64,000 bases of DNA, from the NCBI RefSeq assembly GCF_039645975.1, contig NZ_CP147918.1:2046001-2110000 (forward strand). Reading direction: 5' to 3'. Position numbers and translations under genes: made by a program. The notes below the pieces were generated by a model. It had not been told where the DNA came from. It saw only the letters and a program-made list of their open reading frames with translations, and made no database searches. Position 1 is the stretch's first letter. Every line of letters begins with the position of its first letter. Shown here piece after piece: positions 5,354 to 58,044 of the stretch. Origin of the DNA: Sulfurimonas sp. HSL-1716 (GTDB lineage: Bacteria; Campylobacterota; Campylobacteria; Campylobacterales; Sulfurimonadaceae).

Positions 5354-6046
5354 CTATTTTAAACTGTTCAAATATGCGATCAAAGCTACGATTTCAGGAA
5401 TTTTTCCTGCCGCAACCATATCTTGTACATTTTTATCTTTCATATCAGCAGTAATCACTTTTGCTTCAGCCAAAGCCATTGCGTGAGCGTCTGCTACTGA
5501 TTTTGCCATTGGAACCGTAACTGTACTGCCGTCTTTCATAGGTACAGGTTTGTTGTATGGCACATTGAAAAATTCTGCATTTGTCAATTGATCCGCATAT
5601 GCAGTGTCGATATCAGCTAAGTTTGTAAACATCCAGGTATATGCCGGCATTACAGAACCAGGGACAACGCCCGCCGGGTCTTTCATGTGATTTTCATGCC
5701 AATCGGTAGTACGATAGTTACCGACACGGTGAAGATCCGGACCTGTACGTTTTGAACCCCAAAGGAATGGACGATCATAAGCATACTCTCCGCTTAAAGA
5801 GTAGTGACCGTAACGATCAGTCTCAGCTTTAAATGGACGAATAAGTTGTGAATGACAAGCATTACAGCTATTTTTGATATAAACTTCGCGGCCTGCCATC
5901 TGCAATATAGTATATGGCTTAGTACCGACTACCGGCTGAGCGGCTTGTGCAAAGTTCGGTAGTATCTCTACTAAACCTGCAAACGCAATAACGACAAAAA
6001 CTCCTACCGCAAAAAAGAACGGATGTTTTTCTAACCAATGAAACAT
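5354..6046 (-). CDS. ccoO: cbb3 cytochrome c oxidase monoheme subunit II
   Basis: CcoO is the membrane-anchored monoheme c subunit that passes electrons to the catalytic subunit. The chosen start, ATG 6046, follows an AGGGGG ribosome site and gives the typical start MFHWLEKHPF. The open frame continues upstream into the end of ccoN but has no ribosome site there. The 230-residue product has one membrane helix (about residues 10-30) and one heme site CNACH at 61-65, followed by QLIRPF and the conserved block SKRTGPDLHRVG. It starts 19 bp downstream of ccoN. Confidence 0.95.
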   Translation of the reverse strand: MFHWLEKHPFFFAVGVFVVIAFAGLVEILPNFAQAAQPVVGTKPYTILQMAGREVYIKNSCNACHSQLIRPFKAETDRYGHYSLSGEYAYDRPFLWGSKRTGPDLHRVGNYRTTDWHENHMKDPAGVVPGSVMPAYTWMFTNLADIDTAYADQLTNAEFFNVPYNKPVPMKDGSTVTVPMAKSVADAHAMALAEAKVITADMKDKNVQDMVAAGKIPEIVALIAYLNSLK

Positions 6047-17206: not shown

Positions 17207-18526
17207 ATGCTCAAAAAAGTACTTCCGTTATCCGGAATATTATCACTTCGCTTTTTAGGTCTCTTTATCGTTCTCCCCGTTCTTTCCGCTTATGCTTTGC
17301 ACCTTAAAGGAGCGACTCCGATGCTTGTGGGTATCATCGTCGGCGGCTATGCCCTTACTCAGGCAGTGTTTCAGCTTCCTTTTGGACTCATGAGCGATAA
17401 AATAGGCAGAAAACCTACGCTTCTTATCGGTCTGCTTATCTTTTTTGCCGGCTCGGTCATCTCCGCAATGAGTACGGACATCTATATGCTTATGCTCGGA
17501 CGCTTTTTACAGGGTGCGGGGGCCATAGGTTCTGTGATCGTCGCCATGATAAGCGATCTTGTCGAAGAGGAGATCCGCGGTAAAGCGATGGCGATGATGG
17601 GCGGTTCGATCGCTCTTAGTTTTGCAGCCGCCATGGTCATAGGTCCGGTTGTGGGAGGACATTTCGGCGTGAGCACGCTCTTTTGGATTGCGGCGGTTTT
17701 AGCGCTTTTAGCAATGCTTATGCTCTTTACGAAAGTTCCCAATCCTCCGAAGATCAAACATATTTACCATAACACTTCCAAGACATCCGACATCCTAAAG
17801 GATCAAAATCTTTTAAGTATGCTCGTTATCGACGGGATGCAAAAAGGATTGATGACGATGGCGTTTGTTATCATCCCTATCATTCTGACCAGTCCCGCTT
17901 TTGGATGGGCGAAAGCCGATCTTTACAAAGCGTATGTTCCGGCCATGATCATGGGGCTTATCGCAATGGGACCTGCCGCGATATTGGGTGAAAAGTATAA
18001 TAAACCAAAGCAGGTTTTCCTTCTCTCCATAATTCTTTTTATTGCCGCATTTTTGCTTATGGGACTCACAAATAGCAGTACTATGTTCGTCGTAGGCGTT
18101 GTGAGCTTCTTTTTAGCGTTTAATATGATGGAGCCGCTGGTACAGTCTATGATCTCCAAATTCGCAAAAGTTCACCAAAAAGGTGCCGCACTGGGCATCG
18201 CAAACACGGTCGCTTATTTTATGACATTTATCGGCGGTACGGCAGCGGGTATCCTACTGGATTATTCCGATCGTGAAGTTTTGGGTATCGGTACGGCAGC
18301 AGTCGCTCTTCTTTGGCTGTTATGGACAACGTTCAAACTTCAAAACCCTATACTGCATTCGCATCTGTATCTTCCGCAAAGCCATGTGGATATGGATAAA
18401 CTAAACGGCTTGGAGCATGAGCATATTGCAGAATGGTATATCAACGAAAGTGAAAAGCTCGTTGTCGTAAAATATGTAAGTGAACATCTTTCAGAAGAAG
18501 CGCTTAAAGCGAAGATCGTTAAGTAG
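17207..18526 (+). CDS. YajR-like major facilitator superfamily transporter
   Basis: This 439-residue MFS protein has 12 predicted membrane helices. Motif A is visible after helix 2 (GLMSDKIGRKPT). The start (SGILSLRFLGLFIVLPVL) and a soluble C-terminal domain of about 60 residues (after LWTTFKLQNP) resemble the YajR group, which has a C-terminal ferredoxin-fold domain. YajR transporters are drug-proton antiporter homologues of unknown substrate. The gene appears to be a single transcription unit with a good start after a long AT-rich leader. Confidence 0.85.
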   Translation: MLKKVLPLSGILSLRFLGLFIVLPVLSAYALHLKGATPMLVGIIVGGYALTQAVFQLPFGLMSDKIGRKPTLLIGLLIFFAGSVISAMSTDIYMLMLGRFLQGAGAIGSVIVAMISDLVEEEIRGKAMAMMGGSIALSFAAAMVIGPVVGGHFGVSTLFWIAAVLALLAMLMLFTKVPNPPKIKHIYHNTSKTSDILKDQNLLSMLVIDGMQKGLMTMAFVIIPIILTSPAFGWAKADLYKAYVPAMIMGLIAMGPAAILGEKYNKPKQVFLLSIILFIAAFLLMGLTNSSTMFVVGVVSFFLAFNMMEPLVQSMISKFAKVHQKGAALGIANTVAYFMTFIGGTAAGILLDYSDREVLGIGTAAVALLWLLWTTFKLQNPILHSHLYLPQSHVDMDKLNGLEHEHIAEWYINESEKLVVVKYVSEHLSEEALKAKIVK

Positions 18527-18565
18527 AATTTTTTTCACTTTACAAATTTTAAAGAAATCTCTCAT

Positions 18566-18587
18566 ACTTTTTTCTCCGCAAAAAAGT
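18566..18587. repeat. Hairpin at the edge of the accessory cassette
   Basis: The arms ACTTTTTT and AAAAAAGT (8 bp each) flank CTCCGC. It lies between the convergent ends of the MFS gene and the macrodomain gene. With its A/T arms it could terminate transcription in either direction. Together with the hairpin at 18612-18625 it looks like an intergenic repeat of REP type. Confidence 0.4.
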
Positions 18588-18611
18588 AGTAAAAAGCTCT
18601 TAATTTATTCT

Positions 18612-18625
18612 CAAGCTGAAGCTTG
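18612..18625. repeat. CAAGCT-GA-AGCTTG hairpin, REP-like
   Basis: Two 6-bp arms separated by two bases, followed by GGGAAATGAG. Short AAGCT-type palindromes of this kind are frequent as dispersed intergenic repeats in several bacteria. Copy number in this genome cannot be seen; no second copy was noticed in the window. Confidence 0.35.
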
Positions 18626-18645
18626 GGAAATGAGTTAAATAGGTA

Positions 18646-19209
18646 TTAACTACTAAATTCTTTTTTCAAATTTTTATAAAAAAATTTAAGAAAATCTTTT
18701 TTATCGTGAATATATATTATCAGAGTTAAATTGAGATCACTATTTTGAAACATATTTTTTATCATAAAAAATATTTTCTCTTTTTTTAAACCGCCTGTTC
18801 CTGTCCCCAATAAAGGAATGGTTAGTGTTGGATTAGTCAATTTTTCACTTATAACTTTTTTTTCAATTAATGATAATATTGTTTTCAAACTTCTTTTAAT
18901 TTGTGAATATGTCGGAAAAGGTACTTTTGTGTCATCTGTATAATTCATGACGGCTACATGTAAGGCATATTTAAAATTTTTCGCTGATCCCGCATTCGAG
19001 ATAATGACATCACCTTGTTCAATCGTCCCAAAGATATCAATATATTTTTGTTTTATTTCATAAAGATATTGTTGGTAAAAACTACCGCCGCATTTTTCTC
19101 TGAATGATTTTGAAACTCCGCTTCCTAATATCAACTCAGTATTTGAAGCATTGACAATAAAAGTCGATTTTTCATTGATTAAATTACCATATTTTATTTT
19201 TAATTTAAT
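18646..19209 (-). CDS. Macrodomain protein with a non-standard start
   Basis: This is a predicted ADP-ribose-binding macrodomain. Seen motifs, in order, are the NAS-N motif (FIVNASNTEL), LGSGVSKSFREKCGG, GDVIISNAGS, HVAVMNY and PLLGTGTGG. The only usual start codon is TTG 19134, which would give 162 residues and remove the first strand and the NASN motif that binds adenosine. The frame stays open to ATT 19209 (187 residues), placed as TAATT on the stop of the upstream gene, exactly where TAATG would be expected. Either ATT is the start, or the ATG has been lost by mutation, or translation begins at TTG on a truncated fold. It is the third gene of an AT-rich cassette. Substrate (protein, nucleotide or DNA-linked ADP-ribose) is unknown. 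Confidence 0.7.
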   Translation of the reverse strand: MKLKIKYGNLINEKSTFIVNASNTELILGSGVSKSFREKCGGSFYQQYLYEIKQKYIDIFGTIEQGDVIISNAGSAKNFKYALHVAVMNYTDDTKVPFPTYSQIKRSLKTILSLIEKKVISEKLTNPTLTIPLLGTGTGGLKKEKIFFMIKNMFQNSDLNLTLIIYIHDKKDFLKFFYKNLKKEFSS

Positions 19210-19727
19210 TATATTTTCCCATTATATTTTTTATCAAAACAATATAATTGTTCATCAATTTCATTTAGTTCAATACCCAAATCTGCAGATATCTTTTGAA
19301 GTTTTTTTGTATACTCAACATACTTATCAATTGAATATTGACTATAGGTTATTTTTTTACCATAAATTGCTCTATATGCTCTAATATCGATTATAGGAAA
19401 TATATCAGGTCTTAAAAACTTTAATATTGCACTAGCCATTGGAAAACCAACACCCTTAGATGAAGTCAATAGTTGTATTGTTCCAAGTACAATCTGTGCA
19501 TCGATAGTAATATCCTTATGGACAGCTATTCGTTTTAAATTTTGTAATGTTTCTTCACTTATCTCTAATACTCTATCTAATTTCCATAAAGCGATCCTTC
19601 TTATATCATCAATAGATATACTCTTATTCTTTTTCATATGATTTTTTAAAAAATCTGTTTCAATTTTATTATAAGTAAATTCATGTGATAAAACATCTGT
19701 CTTTTCATCAAATACTTTATATTTCAT
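19209..19727 (-). CDS. HhH-GPD (DNA glycosylase-like) protein of the AT-rich cassette
   Basis: This 172-residue protein carries a helix-hairpin-helix pattern GVGFPMASAIL (about residues 92-102) and, about 15 residues on, IIDIRAYRAIYG. The aspartate aligns in spacing with the catalytic Asp of HhH-GPD base-excision glycosylases (the VDTHV position). The C-terminal LYCFDKKYN is conserved in related unclassified proteins as I recall them. No iron-sulfur cysteines are present. It starts one base after the stop of the upstream membrane protein gene (TGAaATG), so coupling is likely. A DNA repair or defence enzyme is inferred; a non-catalytic DNA-binding role is possible. Confidence 0.6.
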   Translation of the reverse strand: MKYKVFDEKTDVLSHEFTYNKIETDFLKNHMKKNKSISIDDIRRIALWKLDRVLEISEETLQNLKRIAVHKDITIDAQIVLGTIQLLTSSKGVGFPMASAILKFLRPDIFPIIDIRAYRAIYGKKITYSQYSIDKYVEYTKKLQKISADLGIELNEIDEQLYCFDKKYNGKI

Positions 19728-19728
19728 T

Positions 19729-19968
19729 TCAATCTATCTCATCATATTTATAATCGTCAACTTTTTTTTCTAAATCTGCAATTTCATTTTCCAATTCATC
19801 TATTCGTGTTTCTAATCTTTTTACATAATCAATATGAGCCGAATTTGCTGGCATAGCAAAATCAAGTGCAATTGAGCTCAATCCTATAAGCATAGCGATT
19901 GTCCAAGAAACATCAATTAATGTAAAAAATTTTAGTAATACGATCACAGTAAAAATAATTATGCCCAT
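19729..19968 (-). CDS. Small membrane protein with C-terminal coiled coil
   Basis: This 79-residue protein has two short membrane segments (about residues 2-14 and 20-36, with IDVSW between them) and a charged coiled-coil tail (RLETRIDELENEIADLEKK). The ribosome site AAAGGA precedes ATG 19968. It is the first gene of the three-gene AT-rich cassette with the HhH-GPD-like and macrodomain genes. No family is recognised. A membrane anchor or sensor for the two following proteins is possible but speculative. Confidence 0.6.
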   Translation of the reverse strand: MGIIIFTVIVLLKFFTLIDVSWTIAMLIGLSSIALDFAMPANSAHIDYVKRLETRIDELENEIADLEKKVDDYKYDEID

Positions 19969-20051
19969 AAAAATCCTTTAATTTTTCTAAAATGAAGTCA
20001 GAAAAAAAGCTTACACATAAGGTGAACTTTTTAAGAGAGACAGACAGAACT

Positions 20052-57681: not shown

Positions 57682-57729
57682 GACTCTTTTACTACTTTCA
57701 GAAAAAATTTTACTTACATGTAATAATGA

Positions 57730-57735
57730 TATAAT
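57730..57735 (+). promoter_or_regulatory. -10 box before the short membrane ORF
   Basis: A TATAAT box lies 27 bp upstream of the start codon at 57762, followed by the ribosome site AAGGA (57752-57756). This suggests the short ORF is transcribed or once was. No good -35 is visible. Confidence 0.4.
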
Positions 57736-57761
57736 TTCTACATTTAATAATAAGGAATACA

Positions 57762-57983
57762 ATGGCGTTAGATGAATTAACTGACTCGTTAAAAGCTAAA
57801 TTATACGATTTTAAATATACTCCTTTTCTTAGTTCTTTTCTCATTTCATGGCTTGTTTTTAACCATAAATATCTGCTAATATATTTTTCTAATATCGAAA
57901 ATATTTTTAATAAAAATGCTAATTCTATATATGTTATCAACTCGAAATTTATTCCAAGTATTCTAGAAACATATGAAAAGTGA
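57762..57983 (+). pseudogene. Short membrane ORF, probably a truncated gene
   Basis: This 73-residue frame has a promoter-like -10 and ribosome site and starts MALDELTDSLKAKLYDF, followed by a membrane segment (about residues 22-41). The start resembles N-termini of longer, uncharacterised membrane proteins of about 200 residues that I recall, of which only the first part would remain. The frame ends in TGA without further domains. It lies in an AT-rich stretch right after tRNA-Ser, which supports a remnant of a mobile insertion. It could alternatively be an intact small protein. Confidence 0.45.
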
Positions 57984-58044
57984 AAACTATACCGAAGCAA
58001 ACAAACCTCCACTTTTTCTCAATATATGTTAAACAGGTGTTTTG

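Follow-up and report, generated by a model that had tools for sequence, protein, structure and literature searches.

The window analysed here is a 64,000-nucleotide stretch of DNA from Sulfurimonas sp. HSL-1716. Three ORFs on its minus strand (18646-19968) are flanked by moeA and an MFS gene. The first encodes a 79-aa small protein (19729-19968), assigned from hydropathy and heptads. The second encodes a 172-aa HhH-GPD (Ogg2-like) protein (19209-19727), assigned from a profile, an AlphaFold model and an alignment, and the third a 187-aa macrodomain protein (PF01661; 18646-19209), assigned from Pfam and a homologue alignment. The first two ORFs are separated by a 1-bp gap, and the last two overlap by 1 bp. 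Repeat comparison also identified a 39-nt piece (18563-18601, minus strand) that remains from the 3' end of a ~190-bp dispersed repeat. Within this remnant lies a 22-nt motif of palindrome type, ACTTTTTTGCGGAGAAAAAAGT (18566-18587). The 79-, 172- and 187-aa genes have GC contents of 0.287, 0.252 and 0.259 and GC3 values of 0.175, 0.139 and 0.197, compared with 0.477/0.507 for moeA and 0.456/0.486 for the MFS gene. When moaE is included, the neighbouring genes span 46-48% GC and 48-51% GC3 versus 25-29% and 14-20% for the trio. In a scan of the 64 kb, all 500-bp segments with a GC content of 27% or less started at 18401-19601. A further very AT-rich frame (24% GC, 100 aa) is found at 57710-58012 on the minus strand.

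The adjacency of moeA and the MFS gene is kept in six of seven same-genus genomes; no moeA match was found in the seventh (G004). The gap between the two genes is 9 bp in G001, 48 bp in G002, 49 bp in G007 and 102 bp in G005, while it is ~500 bp in G006, where it holds a 132-aa membrane protein, and ~1.2 kb in G003, where it holds an unrelated 269-aa gene. None of the window's three genes is present at this site in the six genomes. Since the gap is nearly empty in four of the six, the block in the window is an insertion, which by this comparison reaches from the moeA stop to the MFS stop (18527-20051). Thus, the block is horizontally acquired cargo in a variable site. The preliminary description had called the trio tightly coupled, more AT-rich than its flanks and outside any core pathway; all three points hold, and the trio is not a conserved core locus of the genus.

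The 79-aa protein has a hydrophobic N-terminal stretch (about residues 1-40) followed by a C-terminal heptad coiled coil, in agreement with its first description as a membrane coiled-coil protein. A Shine-Dalgarno-like stretch, AAAGGA, precedes its ATG. It matched no family above cut-off in Pfam or NCBIfam and nothing in PADLOC, and no relatives were found in 99 other genomes. At a Photobacterium locus (L007), a membrane gene (5497-5991; hydrophobic at about residues 24-50) is directly upstream of a homologue of the 172-aa gene. We rejected it as a counterpart and left it out of the evidence because it is not visibly homologous to the 79-aa gene and only this one other locus has such a gene.

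The 172-aa protein passed no Pfam, NCBIfam or PADLOC cut-off. Several members of its family gave weak matches to PF19827 (DUF6308) and PF21790 (OGG-like) over the HhH/Asp core, with scores far under gathering (13.8 vs 27.3 and 14.3 vs 27). Its AlphaFold model is all-helical (pLDDT 81, pTM 0.79). In comparisons of the model by Foldseek and VIA-align, the top matches were Ogg2, OGG1 and MutY, with a best Z of 8.9 over 137 residues; Ogg2 structures scored 8.9, 8.2 and 7.4, followed by OGG1, MagIII, AGOG and MutY. The Foldseek E-values were weak (best 0.12), but the ten best rows all belong to the HhH-GPD superfamily and are 8-oxoG, MutY, 3-methyladenine or endonuclease III enzymes. Among PDB sequences, a profile built from seven rows matched MjOgg2 best (E 0.024), with GIGFPMAS over GIGYKEAS and IID over IID. 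The distance from the Lys/Pro position to the Asp is 18 residues in both the 172-aa family and MjOgg2. In the 172-aa protein the HhH reads GVGFPMAS, the position of the Schiff-base Lys is occupied by Pro96 (a nearly invariant Pro in the family), the catalytic-type Asp114 aligns with the Asp of the MjOgg2 IID, and the C-terminus is conserved (DEQLYCFD..NGKI). Ten homologues, among them the distant ones from plasmids and viruses, all keep W48, R52, D114 and R116. The structure prediction and the Foldseek matches thus place the protein in the HhH-GPD fold, and they bear out the early observation of an HhH with an Asp spaced as in HhH-GPD glycosylases.

The likeness to Ogg2, the archaeal/bacterial 8-oxoguanine DNA glycosylase/AP lyase (PDB 3knt, 3fhf, 3n0u, 3fhg), covers the fold of the whole domain and the spacing of the Asp. 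However, Ogg2 has a catalytic Lys where the 172-aa protein has Pro, the 172-aa protein is ~30 residues shorter with 16-19% identity, and its family is mobile whereas Ogg2 is core. Since the Schiff-base Lys is replaced, the 172-aa protein is not a bifunctional Ogg2. HhH-GPD members without this Lys, such as AlkA and MutY, work as monofunctional glycosylases, and the 172-aa protein is probably a DNA glycosylase of the monofunctional type. As the Lys position is Pro and proven glycosylases are matched only marginally in sequence (E 0.0016-0.024), the protein could possibly be a DNA-binding or inactive HhH-GPD relative.

The HhH gene was not found in 99 relatives or in a further 396 genomes sampled from the phylum, and no homologue was found in E. 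coli genomes. Six relatives with 46-63% identity come from Sulfurovum, Rhodocyclaceae, a gammaproteobacterium, Oxalobacteraceae, a Helarchaeote and Photobacterium. More distant relatives are on a Methylobacter plasmid, on a Halomicrococcus plasmid and in the Haloarcula viruses HHPV3/4. Viral contigs were scanned three times, with HhH profiles or protein sequences as queries (A1, A2 and the L008 protein), and gave no match. The family is apparently without an earlier description. In Haloarcula pleomorphic virus 3 (L010:270-713), an HhH-GPD-like frame stays open on the upstream side of the start annotated for putative protein 17; since the homology covers this upstream part, the annotated start may be too late.

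Three of the six close relatives (L002, L003 and L005) are at integron-cassette positions, with an IntI remnant and/or attC-like sites, the latter read by eye from motif and hairpin and missed by a strict motif scan. The L002 homologue adjoins a 204-aa IntI-like remnant (PF13495, E 1.4e-30), is directly downstream of a ~190-bp element that shares 79-80% identity with three elements in the integron array of the same-genus genome G007, and has an attC-like hairpin after its stop codon. In L003, CTAACG...CGTTAG with nested L-box pairing comes right after the stop of the homologue. In L005, CCTAACAA attC-like sites are found 3' of the homologue and 3' of an upstream gene, and the genome carries a full IntI. 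By these sequence features, the family appears to be mobile and of cassette type in these relatives. An integron origin was not adopted for the window copy itself, as no attC-like match was found at its flanks; the sole PF13495 match in the window genome is a 278-aa XerC/H-like recombinase.

Integron integrase genes adjacent to ileS were observed in three genomes of the genus. The gene is intact in G007 (L114, C67:30000-49000) and G003 (L115, C4) and broken in G002 (L116, C121), and none was found in the window genome. The intact G007 IntI bears the IntI-specific insert and has a cassette array, in which the three ~190-bp elements are near-identical and a ParE-type pair is among the cassettes.

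Some of the relatives have defence-type surroundings, consistent with the setting suggested in the preliminary description. The L007 homologue adjoins ParE-Phd, the L005 homologue is ~1.5 kb from a ParE pair, and Hachiman HamA is near the homologue on the Methylobacter plasmid (L008). No recognised defence gene adjoins the homologues in L003, L004 and L006.

The 187-aa protein is a true macrodomain, as its motifs had first suggested: its PF01661 match scores 47.7 bits against a gathering cut-off of 22, and it contains FIVNASN, GDVIISN and GTGTGG. The first ATG/GTG/TTG in its frame occurs only at 19134, and a start there would remove the NASN motif. The ATT at 19209-19207 is in the same position as the ATG of the closest homologues (MIIKIKYGN in L026 and MKFRVKQGD in L027, compared with (I)KLKIKYGN in the window), and a stop a few codons upstream closes the frame. 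Therefore, the ATT, which overlaps the HhH stop codon by 1 bp, is the probable start as judged from the alignment; ATT is a rare but known start codon. A -1 frameshift fusing the two proteins was rejected, since by eye the four-codon segment around the overlap holds no slippery heptamer and the ATT fits the homologues better. The absence of an ATG/GTG/TTG start that retains NASN, the orphan arrangement and the reduction of the flanking repeat to a 39-nt remnant would fit a decaying insertion in which very little macrodomain protein is produced and the block is being lost. However, the three frames are open over their full length and the family-invariant HhH residues are retained, and the use of ATT as a start is known, so that decay appears improbable.

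Macrodomain homologues were found in 14 of the 99 relatives, the closest being 57% (G060) and 51% (G006) identical. On a Sulfurospirillum plasmid, the N-terminal half matches at 63%, the gene is truncated and a transposase is beside it. None of the inspected loci has an HhH homologue nearby, and viral contigs scanned with the macrodomain protein gave no match. By sequence, the closest solved structure is TTHA0132 (2dx6; E 3.7e-8). The position of Lys80 (TaqDarG numbering), the catalytic residue of DarG (PMC5179494), is Met in the HVAVMNY of the 187-aa protein, while a true DarG in a genome of the same order (G062), where a complete DarT-DarG pair is found at L034:5358-7048, reads FPTKRHW in this region. 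The loop GSGVSK is also without the Asp of the MacroD-type GGGGVD loop, an Asp that is missing from some MacroD-type hydrolases (PMC7050489). ALC1-like macrodomains such as SCO6735 can act without the catalytic Lys (PMC9411070), and the 187-aa protein may therefore still be a hydrolase.

In G006, the macrodomain forms a fusion with a LigT/2H phosphoesterase domain (L027:5490-6521). The two macrodomains are 50% identical, but the 187-aa protein has no 2H domain. The macro-2H pairing is known from ADPr-1''-phosphate processing (PMC9503650). A KptA-2H-macro RNA-repair pathway, hinted at by this fusion, was rejected because KptA was not found in eight macro-bearing genomes; the window genome also lacks KptA. 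G006 likewise has no KptA, and its fusion protein may be an enzyme that processes ADP-ribose phosphate.

At nine other HhH loci (six close, three distant), no macrodomain gene is beside the HhH gene, and in three of the six close HhH genomes and on both plasmids a close macrodomain was found nowhere. Since the HhH-macro pairing was seen at no other locus and the 99 genomes hold no relative of the coiled-coil gene, the trio is, within these searches, not a conserved three-gene system. The preliminary description had proposed a membrane-tethered DNA-modification or defence module. Defence-type cargo with an HhH-GPD protein stands as the best reading, but the three-gene unit has to be given up, as its genes were never neighbours elsewhere as far as we searched.

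The best reading, which we hold tentatively, is that the block is acquired defence-type cargo with a base-excision-like enzyme at its centre. The HhH of the 172-aa protein would grip DNA, a modified base would be flipped out, and Asp114 would activate a water, leaving an abasic site. The target would most likely be foreign (phage) DNA with an unusual base, as for the unrelated Brig glycosylases. The macrodomain protein, translationally coupled to the HhH gene, might bind or hydrolyse an ADP-ribose derivative; its cooperation with the glycosylase-like protein is rather unlikely. The 79-aa protein might be a partner or a possible anchor of the other products, and membrane tethering is more doubtful still. 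We favour phage defence as a plausible role of the 172-aa protein because of the integron, toxin-antitoxin and Hachiman contexts of its relatives and because integron cassettes include tested antiphage genes (PMC12409362, citing Darracq, Kieffer and Getz 2025).

Antiphage glycosylases are known, and brig1 adjoins an ADP-ribosyl glycohydrolase gene (PMC11078745), which need not encode a macrodomain. The logic that may be shared with Brig1 and Brig3 is the excision of modified phage bases (PMC11078745, PMC13160076). However, there is no sequence relation between the Brig proteins and the 172-aa protein to be seen, and Brig3, which has a solved structure among the antiphage Brig glycosylases, has a curved mixed beta sheet as its core, AAG-like with weak UDG similarity (PMC13160076), whereas the 172-aa model is all-helical and does not fit an AAG/UDG-like fold. 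A broader proposal, that the Lys-less HhH-GPD family in integron cassettes, haloarchaeal viruses and plasmids consists of single-gene antiphage base-excision effectors, to which the macrodomain here would add an ADP-ribose-linked layer, is somewhat unlikely as a whole. If true, base excision as an immune mechanism would extend to a second fold, beyond the AAG-like one of Brig3. As a single gene, the 172-aa gene is simple to test.

A less probable account than defence is ordinary repair cargo. Here the HhH protein would be an acquired housekeeping-type base-excision enzyme acting on oxidised or alkylated bases, and the macrodomain would be a hydrolase of ADP-ribose derivatives with no relation to it, the two sharing an operon only through landing in a permissive site. 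The best fold matches are indeed 8-oxoguanine glycosylases, the Campylobacterota macrodomain relatives are independent single genes, and the G006 fusion shows the pairing known from ADPr-1''-phosphate clean-up. However, the very patchy, cross-domain distribution of the HhH family and the contexts of its relatives are unlike those of a repair enzyme, and the missing KptA speaks against the clean-up pathway. Very unlikely is a DarTG-like or other toxin-antitoxin pair in which the HhH protein would be a DNA-acting toxin and the macrodomain its antitoxin, an analogy drawn at first sight: the tight coupling with the macrodomain downstream, a weak DarG profile match (3e-10, PADLOC) and the toxin-antitoxin pairs near some HhH homologues fit it, but the 187-aa protein lacks both the catalytic Lys80 and the C-terminal domain of DarG (PMC5179494), no DarT gene adjoins it, the genes on its two sides encoding an HhH-GPD protein and an MFS protein, and HhH homologues occur without an adjacent macrodomain, which is thus not needed as antitoxin. 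The DarTG reading in particular was rejected for the missing Lys80 and DarT.

The ~190-bp repeat of which the window holds a remnant has six full copies in the window genome and many in the genus. All six copies are within 600 bp of an ORF with less than 33% GC, while for gaps in the window the figure is 2 of 42 (Fisher p 2e-6); without a borderline ORF of 32%, five of the six are (p 7e-5). These p-values are descriptive, since the GC criterion was chosen after several copies had been seen. The cargo at the repeats includes AbiH, a PemK/MazE pair with PIN, HEPN-type genes, an AbiL/RloB-type pair, an Mrr-helicase protein and a NACHT protein, and sister genomes differ in the cargo that they carry at the same site. 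The repeat was rejected as an attC, being dissimilar to the integron elements of G007 and L002 and having no Rfam match. It has hairpins and often inverted partial copies alongside. Besides 18563-18601 of the window, repeat loci are L059:3783-3972, L057:4011-4212, L058:3789-3996, L088-L090 and L092-L098. The repeat marks places between housekeeping genes at which genomes of the genus swap AT-rich defence or toxin-antitoxin cargo, and it can serve as a search handle for defence genes there. At L094, a 263-aa HNH-like gene lies between two inverted repeat copies.
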